From assembly GCA_020047715.1 (NCBI GenBank), contig JAIFNN010000092.1:1-45759 (forward strand): 45,759 bases of DNA. Direction: 5' to 3'. Below are positions 29,474 through 45,759 of this stretch, piece by piece. Both the position numbers and the translations under genes were made by a program. This DNA is from Bacteroidota bacterium (GTDB lineage: Bacteria; Bacteroidota; Bacteroidia; Bacteroidales; GCA-2748055). The notes under the pieces were generated by a model that had not been told where the DNA came from, did no database searches, and saw only the letters and a program-made list of their open reading frames with translations. How positions within the stretch are numbered: position 1 is the first letter of the stretch; each line of letters opens with the position of its first letter.

Positions 29474-29986
29474 ATGCTTACTATTCGGAAAATTGCAGTT
29501 ATTCTTTTTGCCTCTTTCGCAATATTTAGCGGATGCGGAGAGATTGTGACCTACCCGGAAACTCCAATAATCGAATACAAAGCATTTGCCCTTTACAGGA
29601 CAACGGATGATCTTGGAAATTCAATTTTTCTGGGTAAAATGGAGGTGGTTTTTACCGACGGCGACGGGGACGTAGGCCTGGTACAGCCCGATTCGGCGGA
29701 AATTGCCGACAGCCTCAAATACAATTTCTTCACCACCCTATACAGCATGAACAATGGAAACTTCGAGAAAATCGAAGGGGCGGTAGGCGAACAAAACTTC
29801 AGGATTCCTTACATCACCAGGGAAGGGCAGAACAAAACCCTTAAAGGCTCAATAATCGTTGAGTTTGAATATAAACTGATCGTTCACGACACTATCTTCT
29901 ACACCTTTTACATGACCGATCGGGAATTCCACAAAAGCAACACCGATAGCTCCGAAGTAATCGTTTTTACAGGCTTAGACTTTTAG
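29474..29986 (+). CDS. Small lipoprotein of unknown function
   Basis: The 170 aa protein starts MLTIRKIAVILFASFAIFSGC, a lipoprotein signal with lipobox FSGC. The mature part has a calcium-site-like DGDGDVG loop in FTDGDGDVGLVQPD, and a beta-sandwich-like pattern ending VHDTIFYTFYMTDREFHKS. Proteins of this form are common orphan lipoproteins in Bacteroidota, and I know no assigned function. It is transcribed from a promoter whose start would almost coincide with the ATG, so the message is probably leaderless. Its last 12 bases overlap the end of the convergent phosphatase gene. Confidence 0.85.
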   Translation: MLTIRKIAVILFASFAIFSGCGEIVTYPETPIIEYKAFALYRTTDDLGNSIFLGKMEVVFTDGDGDVGLVQPDSAEIADSLKYNFFTTLYSMNNGNFEKIEGAVGEQNFRIPYITREGQNKTLKGSIIVEFEYKLIVHDTIFYTFYMTDREFHKSNTDSSEVIVFTGLDF

Positions 29987-32900
29987 CCCCATAAAAAGCA
30001 CATCATCCACCTGCTCGAGATCTTCTTTCCAGAGATTGAAATTGCTTTTCACATAATTGTACTGCTCGTCCATGGGCTTATCATGTATGTCGTGGAGGAG
30101 ATTCTTAAGCCTCACCATCTTGAACTTCTTGCCAAGCGGCCCACCAAACTGGTCGGGATAGCCGTCGGAAAACATATAAACTATGTCGCCTGAAGAAAGC
30201 TGATATCCTTCTTCCTGAAATACTTTGTCATCGGATTCCTTATCGTAGTGGCCCCCAACAGAACTTCGGCTGCCTTTAACATACACTTGCTCCCCTCCCA
30301 CATAAATAATAAGAGGCCGCATGGCGGAGGCTATCCTAAGAAATTTCGTCCGCATATTAATCTCTGCAACAATAATGTCCATTCCGTCATTTGATTTTTC
30401 GGCCTCAAGATTCTGATTCAGGGCCGTCATAATCTCGGTGTCCAAGGTTTTGAGGATTCCCGAGGGAGAATTAACACCCGGGCGGCTGCAGATATCTTTG
30501 ATAAGGGTTGTGCCAATCATCGACATAAAAGCGCCCGGAACCCCGTGCCCGGTCGAATCGGCGCAAACAATCACAAACCTGTCCTCCGCAACCTTGTCAT
30601 ACCAATAAAAGTCGCCGCTCACAATATCCCTGGGCTGGTAAAAAACAAAACTCCCGCTAAAGGTATCCTGCAATCTTTTTATCGGGGGAAGGATACTGGC
30701 CTGAATTCGCTGTGCGTAATTTATACTGTCGGTAATATCCCTGTTTTTGTTCTCAATAACCTCGGCCTGTTCGATTACTTCCTTGGTCCGCTCATCGAGC
30801 TCTTTCTCAAGGTATTCCTGAATTTCTTTCTGCTTTTTCTCCCTATATTTGATTATCGCAAATACTGAACCCACCAAAGTAACAACCGATAAAAGAATAA
30901 ACCACCAGGATTTCCAGAAGGGAATCTTGACATATATGCGAAGTTCAAGAGGCGTTTCAGAGCAAATCCCCGATTCACTGCAAGCACGAAGCATAAAGGT
31001 AAAATCGCCATCTTCAATACGGCTGTAATTTACATAAGGATTCTCGGTAGGTTCAGACCAGTCGTCATACCCATCAAGTTTATATTGATAGCTGACCCCT
31101 TCAGGATTCTTAAGATCAATTCCGATAAAATCGATACGTATCTTGTATTTTCCGTAGGGAAGCCTAACATCGTGGCTATAATCATAATCGACATCGGAAA
31201 TTTTCAGACCGGTAATATTCATTTTCGGGGGAGAAATGGTCTTCCGCTCCTTTGATGGGTCAAACTCAACCATTCCTTTCGACGTGCCGATTACAAGGTT
31301 TCCCCGGGCATTAATCAGACTCGCATTATAGTTGCTGTTGGAAGTTATTCCCTGGTCGACGCTAAACCGCCTGATGCTGCCGCTTGCCTTGTTGATTCGG
31401 CTAAGCCCCAGACTATGTCCAACCCAAACAGATCCCTCCCTGTCGGTTGAAATGCTGTAACAATAGTTGGAAAGTAAGCCATTATCGGTCGAATAATAAT
31501 GAAGGGAATCGCTCAAGAAATGGAAGACCCCATCGCCGTTAGTAGCCCCCCACAAATCGCCTTCCTTGTCTTCTGTAATAGAAACAAATTCAAGTTCGGT
31601 ATTCGCTTCAATTCGAAACTCCTGGCGCGACGTTATGCAATACAAACCATTCGTCCGGGTAGCAACCCACACATTTCCTTTGGAGTCGATAAAAAGATCA
31701 TTAATCTTATTATGGGGGAGACGCTCTGTGGTGGTATATCGTGTGCGTATTCCCGTGGAAGAATTATAATTTATTACCCCACCGTTGGTGGCTATCCAAA
31801 TATTATCGCCGGTTCCGGCTATCCTGTTTACAATATTCTCGAGTGAATTCTGGGAGAAATGGAATAATTCCACGTTCTTGCTTCCAGCCTTCAACCGATA
31901 AACCCCGGAACGGGAGGTCCCGATCCAGATTATATTCCTGCTGTCCTTGTAAAGTGATGTGATTTTGTCCAACGGTAATCCACTGCTTCGTTCCAGAAGA
32001 TACTCCGCTTTGTTGCCGGTGTTATCGGTAACAAGAATACCCGATTCACCTCCAAGATAATATCGGCTCCCATCGCTGCATAACGAAAGAATGTTATCGT
32101 TAAACCTCTCGCTCTCATAAGAATAAAAGGTAAAAGACTGGTCCTTGAGAACCGTTATTCCTTCACCCACCGTGGCAAACCACAAGTTACCCTGATAATC
32201 CTCGAAAACATCCGAAACATAATTGCTGGGCAAACCATTTCTAACCTCAAAATGCTGTATTCCCGTATAGCTTGATGGCTCCGTTCCGGGTAGAAGCCTG
32301 AAAACACCTTCGCCATTTGAGCAAGCCCAAACATTTTTTTCTCCATCCTCATATACATCCATAATGTTTGTATACTGGAGCCCAAGGTCATTCCCGATTT
32401 TGCTTGCTTCAAAGGAATTCGAATCGCTTCCCTGGGCGCGAAGAATGTAGATTCCGTCGGTTTCGGTGCCAATCCAGAATTTTCCCTTTTCAGGGGATTT
32501 CACGATTGCCTGTATTTTAGTGTATGGAACGCTCTCTATTCGTTTGGACAGGGAGACTTTGCCCTTTTCAAAATCAAGGTTGTACATAAAAAGCCCGTCA
32601 AACGTCCCGGCAAGCAGATTATTATCATCCGTGAGAATAACCGATGAGAGGAGCTGTCCTTCAAATCCCTCGGTGAGGTATTGAAAAGCATAGTCGCTAC
32701 CGATTATTATAAGGCCCTTATCCTGGGTGGCGGCAATAATTCGTCCGTCGGTAGTTTCAAGAATCCCATTTATGCTACTCTTATGCTCGTCGTCTGTTGA
32801 GAGAATCCTAAAATGTATCCCTTCCAGCAAAGCTATCGATCCGTCTCTGTATCCAAACCACATCCGGTTCTTGCTGTCAAGAAAACTGCTTACAACAATC

Positions 32901-33142
32901 CTTTGCGGAAGCGTGTCTCCCTGAAAAGTATTTGCAAACTGAAATCCATCGAAGCGAAATATGCCCTCTCCTGAGCCCAGCCAAAGGTAGCCCTCAGCAC
33001 TCTGGTTGATGCGGTTGATGTATTTGTTGGAAAGTCCCTTATCCGCCCCAAAAGTTTTAAAACGGAAATCCTGGGAAAAAGAAATGTCCCCTGCGGTAAG
33101 CAGAAAGATCAGTATTATTAGATGGAATTTGTTTTTTTTCAC
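29975..33142 (-). CDS. Propeller-sensor SpoIIE-family protein phosphatase
   Basis: The 1055 aa protein has a signal peptide (MKKNKFHLIILIFLLTAGD) and about 600 residues of two-component-regulator beta-propeller repeats, recognisable by recurring WLGSGEGIFRFD, WIGTETDGIYIL, WACSNGEGVFRL, WFATVGEGITVL and WVATRTNGLYCI. Then comes a Y_Y_Y domain (KIRIDFIGIDLKNPEGVSYQYKLDG), one membrane helix (WWFILLSVVTLVGSVFAII, near 740), a coiled coil, and a cytoplasmic PP2C/SpoIIE phosphatase with metal-binding Asp in IVSGDFYW, ADSTGHGVPGAFMSM and MFSDGYPDQFGG. It thus resembles a hybrid sensor with a phosphatase in place of a kinase. The presumed target is an anti-sigma-factor antagonist, none of which is in the window. 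It is last in the adhesin cluster. Confidence 0.92.
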   Translation of the reverse strand: MKKNKFHLIILIFLLTAGDISFSQDFRFKTFGADKGLSNKYINRINQSAEGYLWLGSGEGIFRFDGFQFANTFQGDTLPQRIVVSSFLDSKNRMWFGYRDGSIALLEGIHFRILSTDDEHKSSINGILETTDGRIIAATQDKGLIIIGSDYAFQYLTEGFEGQLLSSVILTDDNNLLAGTFDGLFMYNLDFEKGKVSLSKRIESVPYTKIQAIVKSPEKGKFWIGTETDGIYILRAQGSDSNSFEASKIGNDLGLQYTNIMDVYEDGEKNVWACSNGEGVFRLLPGTEPSSYTGIQHFEVRNGLPSNYVSDVFEDYQGNLWFATVGEGITVLKDQSFTFYSYESERFNDNILSLCSDGSRYYLGGESGILVTDNTGNKAEYLLERSSGLPLDKITSLYKDSRNIIWIGTSRSGVYRLKAGSKNVELFHFSQNSLENIVNRIAGTGDNIWIATNGGVINYNSSTGIRTRYTTTERLPHNKINDLFIDSKGNVWVATRTNGLYCITSRQEFRIEANTELEFVSITEDKEGDLWGATNGDGVFHFLSDSLHYYSTDNGLLSNYCYSISTDREGSVWVGHSLGLSRINKASGSIRRFSVDQGITSNSNYNASLINARGNLVIGTSKGMVEFDPSKERKTISPPKMNITGLKISDVDYDYSHDVRLPYGKYKIRIDFIGIDLKNPEGVSYQYKLDGYDDWSEPTENPYVNYSRIEDGDFTFMLRACSESGICSETPLELRIYVKIPFWKSWWFILLSVVTLVGSVFAIIKYREKKQKEIQEYLEKELDERTKEVIEQAEVIENKNRDITDSINYAQRIQASILPPIKRLQDTFSGSFVFYQPRDIVSGDFYWYDKVAEDRFVIVCADSTGHGVPGAFMSMIGTTLIKDICSRPGVNSPSGILKTLDTEIMTALNQNLEAEKSNDGMDIIVAEINMRTKFLRIASAMRPLIIYVGGEQVYVKGSRSSVGGHYDKESDDKVFQEEGYQLSSGDIVYMFSDGYPDQFGGPLGKKFKMVRLKNLLHDIHDKPMDEQYNYVKSNFNLWKEDLEQVDDVLFMGLKV

Positions 33143-33157
33143 TGTTCCCCGTTAAAA

Positions 33158-34132
33158 CTATTGTTGTACTGGCTTTACCCCGATGCTGTATTTGTATTTA
33201 GGCACTCCGCCAATAGGACTGGTAAAAAACTCAAGGTTTTGTCCGTATTGGTTCTTGACATATATTACAACATTGTTATTTTTTATCGGGGGAGTTTTTT
33301 TCTTGATGAACTGAATATCAAGGGAGGTGTTTTTCTCAGCATCCAAAATCTTGAACTCGCTGGTTTCCCATACATCTTCTGCTGAAACAGGGCTCAACTG
33401 CCCTTTTCTGGCAACAGAGACGGTTCGGATAAAACCATCGCTGTCCCAGTCGAAATTCGAAAGTCTAACGGTTACCGTCTGATCGTCAACGAAAGGGTAA
33501 ATGTGTGAAACCTCTTCCGGGTTATTATGCATCCTGAAAGAGTACTCATAGGCAAAGGCATTGGCTCCTTCCACAGGTTTGTCTGAGTTGGCATCCGTGC
33601 TCAGAAAATAACGGTACATATTGCCGTCGTCACCTGATATTCCCTCGCAGATAATTTTAAACACGTTGCCGTCCCATCGCTCGGTATATTCGCCTTCACT
33701 GGGATTAAACGGGCCGAAAGTGTAATAATTCTTGTCATACCGGGGTTCTTCACCAAAGGTTTTTGTGGCAAGCAAGGTTCCGCTTTTATAGTTGCCAGTG
33801 GTCTCTGTTCCCTGTGCAGCCTTATCCGACCAGCATCCTTTGCCCCCATAAACCGAGAAGGTAGTTCGGCTGTCCCAAACCCCTGCAAGCTCATCAATAT
33901 CCCCACCAGAATCGGGATCGTATACACGTATGAAAACGGGTTGATTATGAGATTTCGGAAGCAAAAAGAAGAAGGTTGAGGAAAAGTCATCATCGCCCCA
34001 ACTGGTTTCAGCCTTGTTGCCAAAAGTCATGAGAAAAGGAATGTTCTCATCCACGTTCGGTACCGGCTGCGAAAAAGCTGATTCCGAAAGGAACACTATT
34101 ATTATTGTTGCTATTAAAAAGTATCTCTTCAT
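33158..34132 (-). CDS. Secreted protein of unknown function in the adhesin cluster
   Basis: The 324 aa protein has a clear signal peptide (MKRYFLIATIIIVFLSESAF, cleavage near SQPVP). The mature part is beta-rich, with FFFLLPKSHNQPVFIRVYDP, CWSDKAAQG, WDGNVFKIICEG, AFAYEYSFRMHNN and VTVRLSNFDWDSDGFIRTVS. The DWDSDGF loop resembles a calcium site. No catalytic motif is visible and I do not recognise the family. It follows the PD40/PKD gene after 128 bases and precedes the phosphatase gene by 15 bases, so the last two are probably coexpressed. A role outside the cytoplasm, perhaps with the propeller sensor, is inferred only from position. Confidence 0.8.
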   Translation of the reverse strand: MKRYFLIATIIIVFLSESAFSQPVPNVDENIPFLMTFGNKAETSWGDDDFSSTFFFLLPKSHNQPVFIRVYDPDSGGDIDELAGVWDSRTTFSVYGGKGCWSDKAAQGTETTGNYKSGTLLATKTFGEEPRYDKNYYTFGPFNPSEGEYTERWDGNVFKIICEGISGDDGNMYRYFLSTDANSDKPVEGANAFAYEYSFRMHNNPEEVSHIYPFVDDQTVTVRLSNFDWDSDGFIRTVSVARKGQLSPVSAEDVWETSEFKILDAEKNTSLDIQFIKKKTPPIKNNNVVIYVKNQYGQNLEFFTSPIGGVPKYKYSIGVKPVQQ

Positions 34133-34260
34133 TTGTTTCCCAAAAAATTCCCGTTAAAGTTGAATGCGGCGTACCTAAGAACTTACAAATACTGTGCAAA
34201 TTTTCAGACCGGGTGCTTTCATTTCAACTTTTCTCTCACAATTTAAACCTCAACAAGGTA

Positions 34261-35721
34261 TTAATTTTCCGTTATAACTATTGTTTTAGAGGTGCAAAAC
34301 TTCTTTGCTTCTATCGCGTCCGGATCATCATTAGCCTGCCCCGGTTTAGACTTTGCCTCCTCTGGGTTATTTTCAATAAACATAAGTTTAACAGTAATAG
34401 TGCCTGGAATCAGGTATTTATGTCGGATGGAGGCGTCCGTTCCTTTCTGCCCGTCGCCAAAATCCCAATAGTAATTACCCTTAATTTCTCCCCCGAAATA
34501 CGATTCCAAACCACTCAAAAGAATATCCTCACCTGTTTTGGCACTGTCGGGCATAGTAATGTAGGATTGGATAATCTTCTCAATATTCAATTCATACTCC
34601 GCCTGACTGAACAAGACTTCTTTTGTGAGTTTATCAATAACATTCAGACTCACCATAAAGCTTCCCGGGCCGGCAAAGCAATGTTGTGCTTCCATAGCCC
34701 GAATTTTTGAATTGTCGCCCAAATCCCACTCATATTGGTAGAGTGTGGTATCAAGTTCAACTGTGTTCTCTTCGAAAAACACAAAACAGTAATTGTTTTC
34801 GCGCTGCTGGCGGCACAATTCGAATTTCGGCATTGTTGAAGTGAATGTCCATATTTCCCGGGAACCACCACGGTTATTGGAGAAAAGCCCATTTTCAAAC
34901 TTCTCATCAATAAAATAGGTGTAGTCGTCGAAGTTTGTGTTAAAAGGAGCGCTCAATTTGACAGGTGATATCCACTTCCCTTTATAAAATTCGGAATAGA
35001 AGAGGTCATAGCCCCCAATGTTGTTATCATGCCCGTCGGAAGAAAAGTACAATCTCTCGGTTGCGTGAATGAAAGGATAGCGCTCGTTACCGGCTGTATT
35101 TACCCTTGGTCCCAGATTTTCGGGGGAGCCCCATTTGCCGTTCTGGTAGCGACTGACATAAAGATCATACCCTCCAAAACCTCCGGCACGGTCGGACGAA
35201 AAATATAAAACCGAGGCGTCTTTGTTAAAGCTGGGATAGATTGTATTTGCTTCCCTGTCGTTATGCTCGTATTCCTGTAAATTTCCCCAGCTCCCGCCCT
35301 GATTATCGGCAAAAAACAACCCGAATTTCGAAGTCGACCGAGAGGTTGTCTTCTCGTCAAAGCATTTTGAGAAAGCCATATAGTCGCCTTTCTCGTTGAA
35401 GCAAACAGGACCGTCGTGAAAATCGCTGGCTATCTCAAGACCGAATGGGGCCTGGTCACTCCATTTTCCCTTTTCATCTTTTTCGCTTTCTACTATTTTG
35501 AAAAAAGATTTATTATTCATATCAGTGCCCGTTTTGGGACCGGGAACAGGTCGGTTTGAGCAGAAAATCATTTTATTTCCCAGCATAACGGGTGCCACCT
35601 CATCATATTCACGGGTTGAACGAGGATGCTTTTTTGTATCGTAATAGCTTTGCGCAACAACAGGATAAACCATCGCTGACAATAGGGACAACACAAATGC
35701 TATTTTAACAAGCCTCCTCAT
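34261..35721 (-). CDS. Secreted PD40 beta-propeller and PKD-domain protein
   Basis: From the ATG at 35721 (a GTG lies just before it) the product is 486 aa with a signal peptide ending near YPVVAQ. Residues about 40-300 are PD40/WD40-like propeller repeats: VAPVMLGNKMIFCSNRP, YPSFNKDASVLYFSSDR, YPFIHATERLYFSSDG and GGYDLFYSEF. Two PKD-like domains follow: YQYEWDLGDNSKIRAMEAQH with FAGPGSFMVSLNV, and YYWDFGDGQKGTDASIRHKY. The first part resembles PorE-like proteins encoded with type IX secretion partners, but the OmpA peptidoglycan-binding domain of that group is absent. It abuts porP/sprF and likely forms part of the envelope complex for the adhesin. Confidence 0.88.
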   Translation of the reverse strand: MRRLVKIAFVLSLLSAMVYPVVAQSYYDTKKHPRSTREYDEVAPVMLGNKMIFCSNRPVPGPKTGTDMNNKSFFKIVESEKDEKGKWSDQAPFGLEIASDFHDGPVCFNEKGDYMAFSKCFDEKTTSRSTSKFGLFFADNQGGSWGNLQEYEHNDREANTIYPSFNKDASVLYFSSDRAGGFGGYDLYVSRYQNGKWGSPENLGPRVNTAGNERYPFIHATERLYFSSDGHDNNIGGYDLFYSEFYKGKWISPVKLSAPFNTNFDDYTYFIDEKFENGLFSNNRGGSREIWTFTSTMPKFELCRQQRENNYCFVFFEENTVELDTTLYQYEWDLGDNSKIRAMEAQHCFAGPGSFMVSLNVIDKLTKEVLFSQAEYELNIEKIIQSYITMPDSAKTGEDILLSGLESYFGGEIKGNYYWDFGDGQKGTDASIRHKYLIPGTITVKLMFIENNPEEAKSKPGQANDDPDAIEAKKFCTSKTIVITEN

Positions 35722-35724
35722 CAC

Positions 35725-36639
35725 TTAAAAATAAAATGGACTATCATCAACATTGGCTTTGTACTTCAACTCATAACGAATCATAATTTCATGGGATCCA
35801 TTCGAAAACTTTGATATCTCGCTAAATGAGTGGTCGTAAGCATACCCAATTTTCAGGGCTGCGTTTATCTGCACTTCGAGCATAAAAGTAAGGTCTTTAT
35901 TCGATTTATATGCGGTTCCCAACCAGAGCGCATCGTTTAAAAGTATAAAATGACTGGCAAACTGATACGAAACAAAATATTTATTGTAATCGATAAGCGT
36001 AACGGGTTTGAACTTGAAATTCGGGCCGAAATCAAATAGATAACCGGCAGTAAGGACATAATGGTAACTGCCCAAATCGAATTTGGCTTTTGTGGAATCG
36101 GACTTGCTCATGAAAAACGGCACAGCTAATCCCACGAAATATTTATTATTGTACAAGTAGGCACCGGCACCAAAGTTAGGTGCGAAACCGCTGCGGGGAA
36201 CAAAGGCAGGGTCGGTTGCCACCGGATCTTTGAGATTCAAATCCTTAAGTGTTTCTTTGAAAACATACCCCCCACCTTTAAATCCCAACGAGAGCCTCGA
36301 ACTTCCAAGCCACATCCTGTAGGCATAATTGAAATATAGACTATTGTACTGAACCGAGGGGATGGAGAAATTATCAAACATAATACCCAGGCCAATTTTC
36401 TCATTTTTAAGGGGAGAATGGGAGGCCAGGATCTGAGATACGGGAGCACCTTCAAAACCAAGCCACTGGGAGCGATGCATCAGTGTGGTGCTCATGGCTT
36501 CGCGGCTGCCTGCATACGCGGGGTTGATGATAAGCCCGTTATTCAGGTACTGATCCACGCTATGAATATAGGGTATATCCTGCGCTTGCACGGAAGAGCA
36601 AAACAGTAAAACAAAAGCTATATTAAAAAGTCTGCGCAT
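35725..36639 (-). CDS. PorP/SprF-family outer-membrane protein of type IX secretion
   Basis: PorP/SprF proteins are outer-membrane beta-barrels needed for surface delivery of adhesins with type B sorting domains, as SprF is for SprB in Flavobacterium johnsoniae. The 304 aa protein has a signal peptide ending at AQDIPY. The family start IHSVDQYLNNGLIINPAYAGS is present and then the MHRSQWLGFEGAPVSQI segment. Beta-barrel strands follow, ending in an aromatic residue (DDSPFYF). It lies 8 bases downstream of the adhesin gene, and its stop is directly followed by the PD40/PKD start, so the genes are coupled. Confidence 0.95.
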   Translation of the reverse strand: MRRLFNIAFVLLFCSSVQAQDIPYIHSVDQYLNNGLIINPAYAGSREAMSTTLMHRSQWLGFEGAPVSQILASHSPLKNEKIGLGIMFDNFSIPSVQYNSLYFNYAYRMWLGSSRLSLGFKGGGYVFKETLKDLNLKDPVATDPAFVPRSGFAPNFGAGAYLYNNKYFVGLAVPFFMSKSDSTKAKFDLGSYHYVLTAGYLFDFGPNFKFKPVTLIDYNKYFVSYQFASHFILLNDALWLGTAYKSNKDLTFMLEVQINAALKIGYAYDHSFSEISKFSNGSHEIMIRYELKYKANVDDSPFYF

Positions 36640-36647
36640 TTAATCCT

Positions 36648-39600
36648 CTAACGTTTTACAACTATATATCCCTTTTTATCAAAACTTTGTCCACGGTAAT
36701 CAACAATGAGCACATAATAATATGTACCGTCGGGAACATAATTCCCGGCCCCTCCCAAACTGGTAGTGCCATCCCAGATTACAACCTGGTTATTCAGCAA
36801 ATCCACTTCCGGTAAATCTTTCCGCACAATCTCACGGATAAAATTCCCCGAACTCGAAAACAACTGGAATTTGAAGTCCACTTCCTCATCGGCAAGCCCA
36901 ACTGCCCAAAGCTCATCGTTTACACCATCTTCATTCGGTGAAAAGCCATCGTACACAAGCAATTCTTTTCTCACTATTTTAACCGTGCGGAGACTTACAG
37001 GACAGGTACCGTTGGAAATGCTGTAGGTCAGGAATGTCGGATCGTCCTGATCCAGTTTGCTGATAGAAGTAGTAATTCCTGTTGTGGACGAAAGCTCGCC
37101 TGCACCTGAACTGATGCTCCAGGCAGGCACTCCCGTAACAACTTCGTCTGCTTTAAGGTTTTGATTATCGCTTATAAATACAATAAGAGTGTCACCTATG
37201 GCCGACTCCTGACTATTTGCAAATTTGTAAAGGTTTCTAATGGTGTCGGGGTTATTGTACAAAATAGCATCAATGAAAAGCGTGTCGCTCGGACAGTTTG
37301 CGATATCCTCAACATAAGCCAGGGATACCGAGGCAAAGTCTTTATCGGGGGAGTAAAGGGCTGTGAGAGTAATATCAGGATTTTTAAGTTGACTGGCAGT
37401 TATTCCGTTTGCATTCCATAAATGCCAGGAGGGCACTCCAAAACTCTTGTCAACAGAAACCAGAAGGCTGTTGGAACAAGACTCTATGAGGGTGTCGCTT
37501 GCTGAAATTAATCGAGGCTCAGGTGCAACAAATACCGTCAGCGGAAGACTTTCATTTAGCTTATTGTTTGTTGCCCGACAAGCCTTGGAATCGATAATGG
37601 AGAGGACTTTGAAATGGTACTCAATAAAACCGGGATCCAGATCAGGTTTACCGATAAGGGGCTGAATTGCCTTCGATCCGGTTTCAAAAGTGAAAATCTG
37701 TCCATCGCTAAAACTTACGGTATAAGGTAGCGCTCCCGATTCAACACTTATCGTAATAAAAGGGTAGTTCTTATTGGAGCATATAGAGTCCAGATCGGCG
37801 GTAAGGCTGGAAAGCTCCGGAAGATCAAGAGGCTCTACTCTAACGGGGAGTGAGGTACTTTCGCAGACCCCGGAGGTAACAAGTCTCTTGTAATACCGAA
37901 CGGTTTGGATTGCTTCGGTTAGGTATTTCGGATTGGATTTTTCTGCAGATTGACTTGCGTCCTCGTACGTGCCATCTGAAGTAGGACTCTCCTTCCATAG
38001 GTAAGAGTAGGAGGTTTCGTCTCCCCCGGTTAAAACGCCTGCCTGAAGCGTTGTGTCACTATCAAAACAGACCCACACTGTATCGTTGTTATTTATGCGA
38101 TTATTCTCAATACTCTTCTGCATGGTAAGGCTAATAATATTACTGGTATCCTTGCAAGTCGCTTTTAATCCCGATTCCACAATTCTGCGGTAATCAACCG
38201 AGGAGGCGATAACCGGAGTATTCAGTGAAATAGCTGTTTCGCCTGTGTTGGCCCAACTGTTTTCCGAGGTCATACTTTGCCAGGTATACAGATAGCTGCC
38301 GCTGCCATTCTCGGGAATATTGCCTGTAACATCGTCGGGCTCATCGCCTTCACACCAGGTTGTTTCGGGAATTGATATCAGGTTATTAGTAATTTCCTCT
38401 AAAATAGTAATTGTACTTACATCTGTTGTATCGTAGCATCGCTGGGATAAAACAGGATTTGTCCCGGAAGAAACGATCCTTCTGAAGTTTGAGGTGCTGG
38501 TGAGGATTCCCGGGATAAAGCCGGTTGCCACGGTTCCACCTGCTGCATCGGTGTTATTAACCTGCCAGCGGAAGGCATACGTGCCGTTCCCTCCTGAAAG
38601 GGCAGGGGAAGAGGCAGTGGTAGTTGCGCTAAGGGTGTCTCCTGGCAGCCCGGAGCATAATATATTTTGAGCTATTGGGTTGAGGATGTTATTGGAAATA
38701 TCGGGCATTACAGCAACTGTAAGCTTGGCGGACGTGTCTTTGCAAGTTTCGTTGGGACCTGAAATCACGATTCTGCGATAATTCATACTATTGCTTAAGG
38801 CAAGTGGGGGCTGGTAGTTCTCACTGGTAACCGCAGCCGACCATACTGTAGAAGCTGTGGTTTTTTGTTCCCATTTGTAGGTATAGGAAAGGGGCCCGGC
38901 ACCTCCGGCGGGTGGATTTCCGGTTAGTTGTGAAGGCGTTCGGGCGGTACAGATTTCCTGATCCGGACTTAAATTATTATTGGTAATCAAAGGGAGAACG
39001 GTAATTTTTATGCTGTTGCTGTTGCTCACGCAAGCTGTTTTTGCCGGCCCTGACATGGCAATTCTTCGGTACCAGGTAGTGTTTGTAAAGGGTAATGTGG
39101 GGTAAGATGCAGCAGCATAAACACTGTCGGCAGATGTAAAGGCGGCATCAGAAGATTTTTCCCATTTATAGCGATAGCTATTGTTGCCTCCCGAAATAAC
39201 CAGGTTTGGGGAGAGAGTCCCTGCATCGAGATTGGTGCAAACTGTTGCATCGCCAACAATGGAGTTATTGGAAATAACGGGCATTACGAACATCTCAACA
39301 ACATTGCTTGTATCGTAAAGCGCGGGAGCGTTGTAAACCGTTCTTTTATAGAAGGTCGTAACATTGGTTCCCGGAGGAGGCGTGTATGCAGCCTGGTCGA
39401 TGGTTCCAGCTGCGTCAACCCAGTTCACCGCATCGGCACTCTGCATCCATTTGTATACAAACACTCCGGTTCCTCCTGCAGGAGGAGCCGCGTTTATCGT
39501 TTGGGGAGGACTGCCGAAACATATTGTATCGGCATCGGGAATGTAGTTGAACAGAAACCCCCGTATCGGGATTTTAAGATCTCCCAATCTGGGTTTGAAG

Positions 39601-40934
39601 CCACCATCGGTAGCTCCCCGGGTACCCAGATTAGAGGAACCGGCCTTCCCTCTTGCAAGGTAAAATTCCGGACCTGTAAGGGTAGTCCTGTTATGCCAGA
39701 TAACTCCACTTCCACCGCCGCCGCCTGGCCCGCCTGGTTTAACTACTGAGTTATCAATACTGCCGCCGTGGCCCCCATTTACCCATAATTTTGGCTTATT
39801 GGGTGCAGGAACCGTATTGACATGAAGAATAATGGTGCCGCCGCCACCGCCGCCGCCTGCCCCGTATGTTGACAATTCAGAAACCGAATCGCCTCGCGCA
39901 TAAATATTTCCGTTCCCGATAAGGCTGTCGCATACAATAATAACAATGCCTCCTCCATTTCCGCCCGCGCTTGCACCAAAACCGGCAAGCATCTGTGAAG
40001 AAGTTCCACCGCCACCACCCAGAGAGATCCGGTTATCGGCACCGTAATAGAGTTCAAGTGGCCGGCCTCCTTTGCCTCCCATACCGGACACTGCTGCACA
40101 ATCGGAATACTCGTTACCACCCGATCCGCCTAATCCGCCATTGGCACCTCCGCCCCCACCCGAAAATCGTCCGTTGCCACCGCCTCCTCCATTTATGATG
40201 GCCCCATTGCCCCGGGTGATATCGTTGAAGGTGTTTGCAACTCCTTGACCCTTTGAAGCCGAATACACTGACTCTGAAGAGGTAAAATAAGCTTTGCTAT
40301 AATTGGTTGGATCGAGCGATGCACAGGTTCCCGTATAATCAAAATCGTCGGGAGCGGCACCCGGGAAGCCCTTGCCGTCAACATCGATATCGCTTTCAAG
40401 TTCTAGACCCTGTTTAACCATCAAGGCAAGTATCCCGCCTGTTTTTGTGGCTGTATCGTAGGGTAAACAAGTAAGGGTGCTGGTTACTTTAGCGCTTCGA
40501 TAAGTGGGGATTTTGATAACCTGCCCGTACTCCCCTGCAGAGAGTTTGTCAAAACCACCAAGAGTAGAATTTAAAAACAGAAGGTTTGAGGGAGCATCAA
40601 GACTGTCTAAAATAAAAATCGCATACTTGCCGGAATTCCGCTGAGCAGCCATTTTTCCTTCAGTGGAACCGGGGATAGTGATAAAATCTGCCCCAACCGT
40701 CATATGGATCAACACTGTGTCCCCGGATGCGAAGCCACTTGTGCTGTTTACCCTCAAAGAGTCAATATCCGAATCGTTTAGGCCATAAACCTCATCAATC
40801 CTTGCGGATACCGTGTTAATAACACCCCCAATATTTTCCTGACCGAAAGCATTGAAATCCGAAGACAAGAACAGGATGATAAATCCAGTTGTAATCCAAT
40901 GAGTTAGACGTATTACGATTCTCTTATGATCCAT
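36648..40934 (-). CDS. Large surface adhesin with type IX (gliding-type) C-terminal sorting domain
   Basis: The 1428 aa protein starts with a signal peptide (THWITTGFIILFLSSDFNAF). In order: an N-terminal beta domain; a Gly-rich block (about 245-415, with repeated GGGG runs); six Ig-like repeats of about 94 residues (about 465-1030); a beta-rich spacer; and a C-terminal domain of about 100 residues (DGFSPNEDGVNDELWAVGL, ending KKGYIVVKR). The last matches the gliding motility-associated, CHU_C (type B) domain used for outer-membrane passage by the type IX system. Cell-surface display is therefore likely. The binding target is unknown. The gene heads the adhesin cluster; its secretion partner porP/sprF is the next gene. 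Confidence 0.92.
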   Translation of the reverse strand: MDHKRIVIRLTHWITTGFIILFLSSDFNAFGQENIGGVINTVSARIDEVYGLNDSDIDSLRVNSTSGFASGDTVLIHMTVGADFITIPGSTEGKMAAQRNSGKYAIFILDSLDAPSNLLFLNSTLGGFDKLSAGEYGQVIKIPTYRSAKVTSTLTCLPYDTATKTGGILALMVKQGLELESDIDVDGKGFPGAAPDDFDYTGTCASLDPTNYSKAYFTSSESVYSASKGQGVANTFNDITRGNGAIINGGGGGNGRFSGGGGGANGGLGGSGGNEYSDCAAVSGMGGKGGRPLELYYGADNRISLGGGGGTSSQMLAGFGASAGGNGGGIVIIVCDSLIGNGNIYARGDSVSELSTYGAGGGGGGGTIILHVNTVPAPNKPKLWVNGGHGGSIDNSVVKPGGPGGGGGSGVIWHNRTTLTGPEFYLARGKAGSSNLGTRGATDGGFKPRLGDLKIPIRGFLFNYIPDADTICFGSPPQTINAAPPAGGTGVFVYKWMQSADAVNWVDAAGTIDQAAYTPPPGTNVTTFYKRTVYNAPALYDTSNVVEMFVMPVISNNSIVGDATVCTNLDAGTLSPNLVISGGNNSYRYKWEKSSDAAFTSADSVYAAASYPTLPFTNTTWYRRIAMSGPAKTACVSNSNSIKITVLPLITNNNLSPDQEICTARTPSQLTGNPPAGGAGPLSYTYKWEQKTTASTVWSAAVTSENYQPPLALSNSMNYRRIVISGPNETCKDTSAKLTVAVMPDISNNILNPIAQNILCSGLPGDTLSATTTASSPALSGGNGTYAFRWQVNNTDAAGGTVATGFIPGILTSTSNFRRIVSSGTNPVLSQRCYDTTDVSTITILEEITNNLISIPETTWCEGDEPDDVTGNIPENGSGSYLYTWQSMTSENSWANTGETAISLNTPVIASSVDYRRIVESGLKATCKDTSNIISLTMQKSIENNRINNNDTVWVCFDSDTTLQAGVLTGGDETSYSYLWKESPTSDGTYEDASQSAEKSNPKYLTEAIQTVRYYKRLVTSGVCESTSLPVRVEPLDLPELSSLTADLDSICSNKNYPFITISVESGALPYTVSFSDGQIFTFETGSKAIQPLIGKPDLDPGFIEYHFKVLSIIDSKACRATNNKLNESLPLTVFVAPEPRLISASDTLIESCSNSLLVSVDKSFGVPSWHLWNANGITASQLKNPDITLTALYSPDKDFASVSLAYVEDIANCPSDTLFIDAILYNNPDTIRNLYKFANSQESAIGDTLIVFISDNQNLKADEVVTGVPAWSISSGAGELSSTTGITTSISKLDQDDPTFLTYSISNGTCPVSLRTVKIVRKELLVYDGFSPNEDGVNDELWAVGLADEEVDFKFQLFSSSGNFIREIVRKDLPEVDLLNNQVVIWDGTTSLGGAGNYVPDGTYYYVLIVDYRGQSFDKKGYIVVKR
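37840..39540 (-). repeat. Six tandem Ig-like coding repeats in the adhesin
   Basis: Six diverged units of about 94 residues share the pattern I-x-N-N, an early Cys, Gly-rich middle, YxYxW, (Y/F)RRIV or YKR, SG, and a late Cys or CxDT. Examples are RRIAMSGPAKTACVSN, RRIVISGPNETCKDTS, RRIVSSGTNP, RRIVESGLKATCKDTS and KRLVTSGVCESTS. The two Cys could form one disulfide per unit. Boundaries are approximate. Confidence 0.75.
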
Positions 40935-41006: not shown

Positions 41007-42137
41007 TTATTTTCCAAACCGTTTCCGCCAACCGGTTTTAATCGTGTTTACAAATCTCCTTATATTCTCTCCTGTGATTGCGTGCTTGCGGGTTCCTGTT
41101 TCTCCCAGCAGAAAAGAATAGGCATGGAGTTTTGGTGCAGCCTCGGCCATAATATTGAACATTGCCATCAGTGGAACAATGGAAAACATTCCCGGTATCC
41201 CCCATACCATTCCCGCCCCAACAATCCCAAGGATTATCATCATGGGGTTCAGCCGTAAACTGCTTCCTACAATATTCGGCGTGAGGATATTGTTTTCGAG
41301 GGAATTTACAATCAGGAAAAAAATAGTGACCTGCACTGCAAAAAATGGAGTGTCGCCCGTCAGCAAAGCAAAGCCAACGGGAAATATCCCCCCGATAAGA
41401 ATTCCAAAATAGGGTATAAAAGCAAACAAGCCCGACACCACACCAAAAATAAGTGGATGTTCAAATCCGATATAATACAATCCCACGGAATTCAGGATCA
41501 TCAAAATAACCACCACAGTCGAAACGCCACCCATGTAGCGCGGAACAACGCTCGCAAAGCGGTTAAGCACATCAACCGCAATGGGGCGGTTTTCTTTCAC
41601 AACCATTTTCATTATGAAATAGGCGAGTTTCGTGCGGTAATAAAGAAAAAGGAACATATAAATCGGTAATATGGCAAGGCGAAAGAGGGTTCCGGTAATG
41701 TTCGAGAAAAGGCTGTTCATTGCCACGTTTCCCACTTCAAATAGGTGCTTTACACGGGTTCGCAGAAAATCAGTAAGCCGGAGGTCTGCCAATCCAAACT
41801 CCTGCTCAATAAACGTCTCCATAGCATCGATGTTTGAAAGCGCCTTTTGCTTATAAAGGGGGAGGTTATCCAACAAATTTCCTGCCTGGTTGTAGATTGA
41901 AACAAGGGCAAATCCAACTATAAACACAAAAAACGCAATACCGATCAGGCTCGCAGGGATTCGGGGGAGGCCCTTCTTTTCGAAAAAGTTCGCTATTGGA
42001 TATACCAGATACCCAAACAAAACACCCAAAACAATAGGATACAGGAAATCCTTTGCCTGTATGATTGCATAAAAGAAAAGTATGATCAACAGTAGTACGT
42101 ATGTAAACTTTAAGTATAACGGGTTTTTGTTGTCCAT
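41007..42137 (-). CDS. AI-2E family membrane transporter
   Basis: The 376 aa inner-membrane protein matches the AI-2E (PerM/TqsA-like) family: MDNKNPLYLKFTYVLLLIILFFYAIIQ, YPIVLGVLFGYLVYPIANFF, a cytoplasmic hydrophilic block, then VVVILMILNSVGLYYIG, PLIFGVVSGLFAFIPYFG with the conserved IPYFG(P/I) segment, and NILTPNIVGSSLRLNPMMII with the family NPxxxxLGxxxxG region. Family members export autoinducer-2 or small ions or solutes; the substrate here is not predictable. It begins 3 bases after the histidine kinase stop, so the two are cotranscribed. The kinase may control or sense a related signal, but this is inference. Confidence 0.92.
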   Translation of the reverse strand: MDNKNPLYLKFTYVLLLIILFFYAIIQAKDFLYPIVLGVLFGYLVYPIANFFEKKGLPRIPASLIGIAFFVFIVGFALVSIYNQAGNLLDNLPLYKQKALSNIDAMETFIEQEFGLADLRLTDFLRTRVKHLFEVGNVAMNSLFSNITGTLFRLAILPIYMFLFLYYRTKLAYFIMKMVVKENRPIAVDVLNRFASVVPRYMGGVSTVVVILMILNSVGLYYIGFEHPLIFGVVSGLFAFIPYFGILIGGIFPVGFALLTGDTPFFAVQVTIFFLIVNSLENNILTPNIVGSSLRLNPMMIILGIVGAGMVWGIPGMFSIVPLMAMFNIMAEAAPKLHAYSFLLGETGTRKHAITGENIRRFVNTIKTGWRKRFGK

Positions 42138-42140
42138 ATT

Positions 42141-45100
42141 CTATTGCTGATAAATGGGTAATTCAACGATAAATACACTGCCTTTGTTCATTTCGGTCTC
42201 ATAATAAATTTTGCCTCCGGCATTCTTCAATATGCTGTCCACAATTGCCAGGCCCATGCCCATCCCACCGGATTTGGTTGTAAAGTTAGGTTGAAAAAGC
42301 TTATCCCTGATTTCTTCGGGTACTCCTTTCCCATTATCCCGGAAACGAATAATCGCTATATCCCCGCTTTTCTCAAGGCTCACATGCAGTTTCCCTTCTT
42401 TGGAATCATGAAGCGACTGTATCGCATTTTTCAGCAAATTGATAAATACACGCGATAGCTGCTCTCGATCGGCATATACAAACAACCCTTCGTGTTCCGG
42501 CACATTAAGATCTATGCTCAGGTTTTCTGTGTTCTCAAAAAGCCTGCAGGCATTGCTGAGTTTTTTGATGAGATCGAGCTTTTCGTTATTGGCAGAAGGC
42601 ATTTTGGCAAAGTTGGAAAATTCTGTTGCAATAGCCGAAAGGTCATCAATTTGTTCAATGAGCATCTTGCTTAAGCGCTCAAACTGCTCGTCCCAGTTTT
42701 CCTGTTTGTCGTGCAATGTCCGCTGCAAATGCTGAATGCTGAGCCTCATAGGTGTTAAGGGGTTTTTTATTTCGTGGGCTATCTGCTTGGCCATTTCCCT
42801 CCATGCAGACTCCCGTTCCGATTTCGCCAGAAGCTCTGCGCTTGAGGTTAGCTGGTCCACCATTTTATTGTACTCACTCACAAGACTCCCGATTTCGTCG
42901 CGTGCCTTGTATCGGATCTTCTCATTACTCGCATTCAGGCTTATTCTTGAAAAGCTTTCCTGCAGCAGCCTCAAGGGCAGGGTTAGCTTGTTCGAAAGAA
43001 AAACGGCAATGGTAAAGCTGAGCAGAGACATCAGCACCATAATATTAATAATCGCAACTACAAGGTTGGTTATTTCGCTTGTTAGCTCGTTCTGACGCGT
43101 GAAATAGGGCAGGTTCAGATAGGCCAGCAGATGGTTTTCGGAGTTCACAAAAGGTACGTAGGCCGACAGGTATTCCAATCCCCCTACATTTTCTTTATGA
43201 ATAAACTCCGAGCGCTTGTGGATTACCATTTCCAGGTATGCCTGACTGTTCATCCTGCCAGCGATAAGGTTGTTTTCTATAATCTCGGGGCGCGATGTGG
43301 CAAGAATCTCTCCCTTCTCATCGTACATATTGATATCGGTGTAAAACACGTTGGAGAATTTCTCGAGCAAATCGTCGAGACTGTAATAGCTTTCTGTAGA
43401 CCAGTTATGCAAATCATGCTCATATTCGAGTTTATGGATAAGCTCGACGTAAACCGACTGTATTTTCTCCTGCAAAATCTCCACATGCTTGCTCTGATAT
43501 TGGCGGATACTGAAATAAACAATGCCCGCGCCAATACATAAAAGGGAGAAAAAAAGCAGACCTGTCATGGCAAATTGGATTTTATTCTTGAAGTTCCATT
43601 GCAGTTTTGTGATAACCGGACTGATATTGGTTATTATCAAGAAAAACACCATAATTATAAAAAAGAAACTGAAGACATACGAAAAGGAGATGACTATATC
43701 CACCCAAAACACAGTGGGCTTGCTCACAATAATCGTGTTTGATTTGTCTATATTGTACACCAGATGATCGAAATTATCCTTTTCCACAAACGACCATCCT
43801 TCGCTGCCGTCGGTATAAATGCTGCTGGTCATATAATAGGCAAAACTCCCTGAAAAGGTAATGAGTCGACCGTTATTGTATTTCGCATACGAATAATCAC
43901 CTGCGCTTGGAGGTGGGTTGTACTTATCATCGAGAAGAAGTTCGGGATAACCTAAGCCTTCGGAAATCAGCTTGGAGTTGAGCTCAATGTAAAGCGTCAT
44001 TTCGGTATCGTTCTGCTCATAGGGAATAGCTGCGAAATAACTGATCCGGCCATTTAGATTGTCGAGAAAATAGAACCGTGTGTTTGGCACACTAATCCCG
44101 TCGGAAAGAACAATCTCCTCGAAAAACTGATAACAATGGTACCAGTTGTCGTCCGGAGGAGCTACATAAAGACTGTCAAAGGGTCGACACAAGGTAATCT
44201 GCATTTCGTATTTGTCCCAGAACCCGCTAAAATACTTACGCTGTATGGTGGAATAAATAAGGTTGAAATCTATCTGACGATCGAAAAGCATTTGTTTTAA
44301 ATCGCTGTCGCCCTTCAGTCTCCTGTCGATATCCACAAATAGCAATTCGGCAACAGGATCGTGCTCTGCAGAGAGGTTAACAGCCTTGATCTTCATATCC
44401 GTCTGGCTTTTTCTGGCAGTATATTTAACCACCTCCAAAACGGTAAAGGCAGAAAACAATACAACGAAACTTACAAATCCCGAGAAACGATAGTTTCCCT
44501 TCCTCGAAATCCTGATGAAATAGATCAGGAAGCTCAGGAAGAAAAAGAAAAAGGCCGATTCGGTATTTATAAAGCTGGAAGCAGGGATCAGCTCAAGGAA
44601 AACAATAAGGTTCATCGTGGAAATGAGGAACAGCGCTTCCTTCTTTTTGCGCAGATTTTTGAGGATCCCTAAAAACTTGTCAATGAGCAACGCCAAGGAA
44701 GCAAAAAGGAAAGCAAGGATCAGAAACCCAAAAAAGGTGTATACCGTAAGGTTGAGTACCTTGTATGTTTCAAACGAGATTGTAGAGTCGAGAATCAGAC
44801 TTTCAAAAAGGAAAACTGTAAGTCCAAACCATCCTAAAATAAGAATTGAGAACATCAGCACCAACAGGGACAGAAGAGTCTTCGACTTCTTTAAAATCGT
44901 CAGATCAATAATGTACTCTTTGTAAAAATTATAAATTGTGAAGAAGCTTATTAAAGACAGGAAGAGCAGATCGCCAAGAGAAGGGAACCAAACCGAACGG
45001 GCATATTTTTCGGGGGAGAATAAATCCAGGTTGTAAATTATATCGGGTAGCCGGAAATAATGAAGGAAGTAATAAACCCCAAAAAGAAGGATCACACTTA

Positions 45101-45759
45101 CAAAGAACAATATCTTCTTAAGTTTTCCCTCCGCGTTATGAATAAATCTGCGTAAGAAAAACAAGAATAGGATAAACACAAACAGATACATGAAAACCGA
45201 CAATTGTTTTTCGAGGGGACTAAACTTCCGGGTAATATTGTAGTCGAGTGTAAACAGAAAACCGCCGTCGCTGTTGTAGACAGCGTTCTCACCTTTATCA
45301 ACCATTTTTGGTTGGATCTTCACCTGGTTGTCAAGCCGGAAATCCCTGTGAAAACCATTTTTAAGGAAGCGGTTTTCATAAGGGTACTCTTTTTTAAGAA
45401 GAATAAGACCAATAACATCAACCCCTCCGGCTTTGACTTCCCTTTTAATAAAAAACGAATTGGTTATCATCACCAAATCCCTGACCGGGAAATTTTCCCT
45501 GAGTGTTGCAACGGGGACAGTATTGTCGCTCCAAAAGGCAAGTGAGTCGTTTCGGTACACGAATAAGGCCAAACCATTCTCACTGAGTTCAGTGGAGGCT
45601 TTTGTGTATAAGGAGGCGAAATCGTTCCCACTAAGTTTCTGCGCATCCCCCAGAGCTTCTGCCAAAATGGTATCCAGTTGAGCCTGCTTTACTTGCAAGG
45701 TTTGCTGAAATTTTTTTGTGTCGTCCTGATTGTAGAAGCGAGTGCCCGATTTGCTCTCC
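42141..45759 (-). CDS. Membrane sensor histidine kinase, N-terminus outside window
   Basis: The reading frame stays open through base 45759, so the ORF-track start at 45698 (a TTG) is not real; 1205 residues are visible. The N-terminal extracytoplasmic part is followed by about eight membrane helices, a large periplasmic region, further helices, a second periplasmic sensor segment, and a helix leading to HAMP. The kinase core has the phosphoacceptor His in AKQIAHEIKNPLTPMRLSIQ and a HATPase with N, G1 and G2 boxes (NLLKNAIQ, FRDNGKGVPEE, GMGMGLAIV). The H-box is NtrY-like. No response regulator is nearby. The kinase autophosphorylates in response to an unknown envelope signal. It is in an operon with the AI-2E transporter. 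Confidence 0.93.
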   Translation of the reverse strand, partial: ESKSGTRFYNQDDTKKFQQTLQVKQAQLDTILAEALGDAQKLSGNDFASLYTKASTELSENGLALFVYRNDSLAFWSDNTVPVATLRENFPVRDLVMITNSFFIKREVKAGGVDVIGLILLKKEYPYENRFLKNGFHRDFRLDNQVKIQPKMVDKGENAVYNSDGGFLFTLDYNITRKFSPLEKQLSVFMYLFVFILFLFFLRRFIHNAEGKLKKILFFVSVILLFGVYYFLHYFRLPDIIYNLDLFSPEKYARSVWFPSLGDLLFLSLISFFTIYNFYKEYIIDLTILKKSKTLLSLLVLMFSILILGWFGLTVFLFESLILDSTISFETYKVLNLTVYTFFGFLILAFLFASLALLIDKFLGILKNLRKKKEALFLISTMNLIVFLELIPASSFINTESAFFFFFLSFLIYFIRISRKGNYRFSGFVSFVVLFSAFTVLEVVKYTARKSQTDMKIKAVNLSAEHDPVAELLFVDIDRRLKGDSDLKQMLFDRQIDFNLIYSTIQRKYFSGFWDKYEMQITLCRPFDSLYVAPPDDNWYHCYQFFEEIVLSDGISVPNTRFYFLDNLNGRISYFAAIPYEQNDTEMTLYIELNSKLISEGLGYPELLLDDKYNPPPSAGDYSYAKYNNGRLITFSGSFAYYMTSSIYTDGSEGWSFVEKDNFDHLVYNIDKSNTIIVSKPTVFWVDIVISFSYVFSFFFIIMVFFLIITNISPVITKLQWNFKNKIQFAMTGLLFFSLLCIGAGIVYFSIRQYQSKHVEILQEKIQSVYVELIHKLEYEHDLHNWSTESYYSLDDLLEKFSNVFYTDINMYDEKGEILATSRPEIIENNLIAGRMNSQAYLEMVIHKRSEFIHKENVGGLEYLSAYVPFVNSENHLLAYLNLPYFTRQNELTSEITNLVVAIINIMVLMSLLSFTIAVFLSNKLTLPLRLLQESFSRISLNASNEKIRYKARDEIGSLVSEYNKMVDQLTSSAELLAKSERESAWREMAKQIAHEIKNPLTPMRLSIQHLQRTLHDKQENWDEQFERLSKMLIEQIDDLSAIATEFSNFAKMPSANNEKLDLIKKLSNACRLFENTENLSIDLNVPEHEGLFVYADREQLSRVFINLLKNAIQSLHDSKEGKLHVSLEKSGDIAIIRFRDNGKGVPEEIRDKLFQPNFTTKSGGMGMGLAIVDSILKNAGGKIYYETEMNKGSVFIVELPIYQQ

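Follow-up and report, generated by a model that had tools for sequence, protein, structure and literature searches.

A five-gene block of Bacteroidota joining a surface-adhesin anchor to a sensor phosphatase, with a possible role in adhesin-status signalling

The closest described systems combine an exported surface protein with its outer-membrane carrier and a periplasmic propeller protein. In the PorE-PorP-PG1035 complex of P. gingivalis a PorP barrel, together with a PorE-like propeller protein of the periplasm, holds a type B CTD protein (PMC9143113), and the available part of a study on F. johnsoniae describes five operons composed of a type B substrate, an SprF-like shuttle and a PorE-like gene, e.g., Fjoh_3952-3951-3950 (PMC12618676). 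The locus considered here lies on a stretch of 45,759 nucleotides (the window; assembly GCA_020047715.1, contig JAIFNN010000092.1) from a draft, Bacteroidales-like genome that is 88% complete. All five minus-strand genes that the initial annotation had placed between 29975 and 40934 were recovered as open reading frames, at the same coordinates and in the same order:

36648-40934, minus strand: surface adhesin of 1428 aa with a type B CTD (Pfam/NCBIfam and sequence reading)
about 39660-40805, minus strand: Gly-rich AgmC_N-like region of the adhesin, after the signal peptide
about 36657-36956, minus strand: CHU_C secretion domain of the adhesin
35725-36639, minus strand: 304-aa outer-membrane barrel of the PorP/SprF family, predicted cognate carrier and anchor for the adhesin (PF11751, TIGR03519)
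34261-35724, minus strand: PorE-like periplasmic protein of 487 aa, a PD40 propeller plus a pair of PKD domains, with neither TPR nor OmpA (Pfam/NCBIfam)
34133-34260, minus strand: gap of 128 bp separating the PD40-PKD gene from that of Unk, where an internal promoter or a 5' UTR may lie; elsewhere often 0-30 bp or an overlap
33158-34132, minus strand: Unk, 324 aa, periplasmic tandem beta-sandwich protein (signal peptide, predicted fold)
29975-33142, minus strand: inner-membrane sensor phosphatase, 1055 aa, with signal peptide (Pfam and hydropathy)
about 31133-33070, minus strand: Reg_prop propeller of the phosphatase
about 30929-31111, minus strand: Y_Y_Y domain of the phosphatase
about 30842-30913, minus strand: transmembrane segment of the phosphatase (aa 744-767, hydropathy), then a linker
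about 29981-30586, minus strand: SpoIIE/PP2C domain of the phosphatase
42141-45698, minus strand: NtrY-like HAMP-HisKA-HATPase kinase, a regional neighbour of uncertain module membership
41007-42137: AI-2E-type transporter, between the kinase and the adhesin

The first three genes are the counterpart of the known PorE-PorP-type B anchor. The adhesin opens with a Gly-rich AgmC_N-like N-terminus (172 bits, under the cut-off of 275), carries about six repeats of ~98 aa each, with YRR/YKR/FRR at aa 529, 622, 719, 817, 915, and 1015, and closes with a CHU_C type B CTD (PF13585, 38.8 bits versus a cut-off of 27, E 1e-9), while its TIGR04131 score stays under the cut-off of that model; the CHU_C CTD together with a porP/sprF gene 8 bp downstream marks it as T9SS type B cargo. 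The product of that downstream gene belongs to the PorP/SprF family with 199.9 bits to PF11751 (E 7.8e-59) and 204 bits to TIGR03519, both over cut-off. SprA, the T9SS translocon, was not found in the window's own 88%-complete genome but scored 2772 bits in a genome of the same genus (G001) with TIGR04189, used in place of PF14349 (SprA_N), which matched nowhere. The third protein resembles the N-terminal part of PorE (E 2e-45), although a true PorE was rejected at 155 bits, covering the propeller part only, versus the NCBIfam cut-off of 600; a Pfam scan found no TPR or OmpA in it and PKD instead. The initial annotation had stressed the missing OmpA domain, and this holds for the window; OmpA is nevertheless present in distant orthologues of ~700 aa or more, including the counterparts at loci L149 and L156, so its absence is a lineage difference among these sequences and no defining feature. 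A second adhesin-PorP-PD40PKD cassette, without Unk or phosphatase, occurs in the same genome (L313, 9052-14489; PD40-PKD protein of 716 aa).

In contrast to this familiar half, the product of the fourth gene, named Unk here, found no match in Pfam, NCBIfam, or PHROGs. It is better conserved than its neighbours, the PD40-PKD and propeller-PP2C proteins. Mature Unk is predicted to begin at Gln22, Gln22 and Pro25 being invariant in 116 of 116 sequences, and a signal peptide that follows the Q-rule (as given in the available part of PMC5837995) argues for a soluble exported protein and not a lipoprotein; since Unk has no T9SS CTD, it is expected to remain periplasmic. Given 116 alignment rows, AlphaFold2 predicted a tandem beta-sandwich (pLDDT 94.2, pTM 0.89), whereas 23 rows gave a pLDDT of only 70 and no useful match. 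Structure comparison found no close relative of the model in the PDB, and a profile search of PDB sequences returned nothing credible. A function could not be read from the fold, the PDB matches being generic tandem beta-sandwiches at TM 0.2-0.25 (SIDT1/2 ectodomains, N-terminal domains of DeCLIC, and tandem collagen-binding domains of ColG). Two divergent short Unk proteins of about 240 aa (L185 on G011:C74, L186 on G006:C6), 38-41% identical over the N-terminal ~200 residues, are encoded by genes that stand alone, without a propeller or PKD gene.

The fifth protein carries Reg_prop, one transmembrane segment and SpoIIE domains, which bears out the earlier view of an extracytoplasmic propeller coupled to a cytoplasmic PP2C in a predicted single-pass membrane protein. 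Its phosphatase domain is of the SpoIIE/PPM type (PF07228, 54.9 bits, over cut-off, E 1e-14), with D844, D862, D993, and D1046/D1047, the predicted catalytic or metal-binding acids, among the invariant columns of 14 homologues. Hybrid two-component systems usually sense through Reg_prop together with Y_Y_Y; of the output parts of such systems, neither kinase, receiver nor DNA-binding domain was found on this propeller protein, which has PP2C only. Identity with PorZ was rejected as well, at 70 bits versus an NCBIfam cut-off of 260.

How far does this arrangement extend? Unk was matched in 28 of 61 genomes searched and, class-wide, in 49 of 396; a scan of genome contigs gave 376 relatives, the best 80 of them being examined, and 40 longer stretches at the levels of family, order, and class were annotated with profiles built here and seeded from the window. 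Once near-identical Unk copies were removed, 117 distinct Unk loci were left, many of them cut by contig ends. The full-length matches examined in the 28-genome set have PD40-PKD or PorP before Unk and a propeller gene after it. Directly downstream of Unk, a Reg_prop propeller gene is present at 108 of 114 readable loci (96 with PP2C, one with a kinase, and 11 with a propeller only, many of these being interrupted by a contig end, a frame break, or masked bases), and a PKD-protein gene lies directly upstream at 102 of 116. A long propeller ORF at L154 was discarded as a variant because it ends in masked bases. The complete order of type B adhesin, PorP/SprF, PD40-PKD, Unk, and propeller sensor is seen at 76 of 100 evaluable loci, so that, judged on these loci, its conservation is far above chance; the initial annotation had staked its proposal on an order kept beyond the adhesin-PorP pair, and this is what the loci display. 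One complete block, L108, comes from the cultured carrier Labilibacter sediminis CG51.

Spacing is tight as well. In the window the gaps from adhesin to phosphatase measure 8, 0, 128, and 15 bp; across loci, PorP follows the adhesin, and PD40-PKD follows PorP, at a distance of about zero and nearly always of ≤30 bp, and the gap between Unk and the propeller gene has a median of 11 bp (≤30 bp in 69 of 76 blocks), while that between PD40-PKD and Unk has a median of 62 bp versus the 128 bp of the window. Because all four gaps are ≤30 bp in 24 blocks, a single transcript is likely in many carriers; in the window an internal promoter is possible within the 128-bp gap. A promoter and terminator scan gave terminators at shuffle level and uninformative promoter-like sites. 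By hydropathy, Unk, the PD40-PKD protein, and the phosphatase all have signal peptides. On the plus strand, a small lipoprotein-like gene (29474-29986) lies between Der and the phosphatase gene, converging on the latter with a 12-bp overlap at its end, and is kept beside Der in near relatives. At the other border, 40 of 55 complete blocks have a kinase gene, an orthologue wherever this was checked, directly upstream of the adhesin; in the window's genus, the AI-2E-type transporter gene separates the two.

One genome, G002, holds three modules (L262, L171, and L172), every one of which has a separate adhesin, PorP, Unk, and sensor, and distant-family adhesins, from about 700 to 2,700 aa long, share little except the CTD. 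As the flanking genes also differ in distant families, the block is not plain synteny, and on gene order and copy number the five genes behave as one co-inherited, co-duplicated unit within their class of Bacteroidota. In a tree of PorPs, the linked ones group together (3 label changes versus a shuffled mean of 18.1) with the PorP of the window among them. They do not form a single clean clade: at L171 and L184, the PorP adjacent to Unk falls among the free ones. Both loci bear double cassettes, i.e., adhesin-PorP-PD40PKD, then a second adhesin-PorP, then Unk and propeller-PP2C, and it is with their upstream PorPs that the PorP of the L313 cassette groups.

The sensor appears to be specific to Unk. 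Sixteen matches to a propeller-PP2C profile exceeded 1000 bits in a set of 28 genomes, and each of them lay directly behind an Unk gene; the best unlinked paralogue reached 983 bits, and genomes without Unk gave at most 675 bits, a test that is partly circular since the profile was built from linked sequences. A maximum-likelihood tree of 64 propellers sets 37 Unk-linked ones, with 2 tandem copies at the same loci, apart from 25 free ones on a branch with 98/96 support, and a dedicated propeller clade is thus seen to pair with Unk. Nested in this clade, the propeller of L172 carries HisKA-HATPase, and a receiver gene comes after it; the sensor output domain is thus exchangeable, a histidine kinase replacing PP2C in one paralogous module, and such a change of output behind a retained sensor would be expected if the role is in signalling. 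At L165 the propeller has no output domain, and a LytS-type kinase and a LytTR regulator adjoin.

Outside the class, Unk occurs as the N-terminal domain of ~1600-aa PKD-repeat proteins in the eight stretches examined (L271-L278), and this domain fusion supports a physical relation between Unk and PKD proteins. Within the class, Unk loci without PorP often retain a PKD gene in front of Unk (L160, L163, L166, L176, L177, and L187). Kinase, receiver-PP2C, or cyclase genes lie near most of the eight fusions: at L271 the neighbours encode LysM-FecR, Cache-kinase, Cache-cyclase, and receiver-PP2C proteins, and similar neighbours, kinase or FecR, recur at other loci of this kind. Several fusions are preceded by a LysM-FecR-Glucodextran_B or FecR protein, with a Cache-HAMP kinase or cyclase or a receiver-PP2C nearby, and L271-L278 possibly represent a second type of envelope-sensing locus.

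Taken together, we favor, with a probability of roughly one in two, a trans-envelope anchor-and-sensor module that relays the state of the adhesin anchor to the PP2C. The T9SS would export the adhesin, and PorP would hold it while itself resting on the PD40-PKD protein, whose PKD part would bind Unk; Unk in turn would bind the propeller of the inner-membrane sensor. What is relayed may be a loaded or unloaded barrel, a pulled adhesin, or misassembly, and this state would switch the PP2C to dephosphorylate an unlinked STAS anti-sigma antagonist and so alter transcription, probably including that of surface or adhesin genes. While the module itself is documented by the loci described above, we infer its signalling half, and the direction and nature of the signal, from the architecture and the pairing of Unk with the propeller. 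An anti-sigma antagonist partner had been anticipated; a search of the genome found no STAS or anti-sigma partner gene linked to the block, but three free STAS proteins and one RsbW-like ATPase are encoded elsewhere in it. The secretion-and-sensing unit of the initial annotation therefore stands as a secretion-plus-signalling unit by its order, its co-inheritance, and its propeller clade, whereas sensing of the adhesin is a conjecture in view of PorP-less pairs and the lack of a linked anti-sigma partner. About a dozen Unk-propeller pairs, in several families, have no adjoining PorP or adhesin gene (e.g., L152, L153, L157, L159, L179, and L182), and the adhesin accordingly cannot be the only input.

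The same pairs hold our estimate for adhesin-status sensing at even odds and leave some room for another reading, rather unlikely in our view, in which Unk and the propeller sense a ligand from outside the cell or in its envelope (a glycan, a form of LPS, or calcium) and control the co-operonic adhesin as their output, much as hybrid two-component systems do at polysaccharide loci. The domain pair Reg_prop and Y_Y_Y would suit such a role, the sensor pair stays while adhesins differ widely, and the invariant acidic positions of Unk (D47-D49, D72, D80, and D228/D230) could bind calcium or a ligand; yet the recurrent link to a PKD or PorE-like anchor, PKD fusions included, points to a structural partner, and no DNA-binding output is linked. 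We consider it improbable that Unk helps to assemble the PorE-like/PorP complex or acts as its chaperone, with the phosphatase as an accessory regulator and no sensing through Unk. The PKD protein is kept with Unk oftener than PorP is, and without any propeller at L166, L167, L177, and L178, but the dedicated propeller clade and the Unk-propeller pairs that lack an adjoining PKD or PorP gene (L152, L157, L179, and L182) speak against it. That an adhesin-PorP-PD40PKD cassette merely sits, through general synteny, beside an unrelated Unk-phosphatase operon is most improbable: conserved flanking Der/lipoprotein and NtrY-like kinase genes in near relatives might suggest it, but it is already contradicted by distant loci, where the block persists with wholly different flanks, and by the several block copies in single genomes.

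If anchor-state relay holds true, the cell may monitor its own adhesin from inside. The literature we found does not describe how Bacteroidota know whether T9SS-exported adhesins are displayed or engaged, and the module is a specific, testable candidate for this; it also offers a plausible role for a Reg_prop-PP2C subfamily, as well as for a protein family that neither Pfam nor NCBIfam lists. It is tempting to go further, at slightly less than even odds, and to see in Unk the founder of a Bacteroidota-wide family of periplasmic relays. These would couple anchors of the outer membrane or cell wall that contain PKD, here those of T9SS type B adhesins, to propeller sensors in the inner membrane whose output, PP2C or histidine kinase, can be exchanged, as a system dedicated to signalling surface-adhesin status.

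In comparison with known systems, searches of the open-licence literature found no paper on the Unk/PP2C arm. PorZ, a T9SS attachment component, has only a weak propeller similarity to the sensor, which differs by its transmembrane segment and PP2C. With the hybrid two-component systems of Bacteroidota, the sensor shares a Reg_prop, Y_Y_Y periplasmic input, and in the L172 variant also a kinase, but its output in the window is a PP2C without fused receiver or DNA-binding domain. The SpoIIE/RsbU partner-switching systems, as the available parts of PMC5468089 and PMC11418112 present them, have in common with it the catalytic domain and its conserved acidic residues, and free STAS and RsbW-like proteins are encoded in the window's genome, none of them linked to the block; here, however, an extracytoplasmic Reg_prop propeller, paired with Unk, serves as the input, and the putative substrate is unlinked. 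The first three genes are ordered as in the F. johnsoniae operons, for which the available description (PMC12618676), the sole basis of this comparison, reports no Unk or propeller-PP2C. As in PorE-PorP-PG1035, a PorP barrel together with a PorE-like propeller protein would hold a type B protein; unlike that complex, the window protein lacks TPR and OmpA, and the published complex has no Unk and no inner-membrane phosphatase (PMC9143113). The anchor half of adhesin, PorP, and PD40-PKD protein is thus known, and Unk and its propeller-PP2C clade are new.
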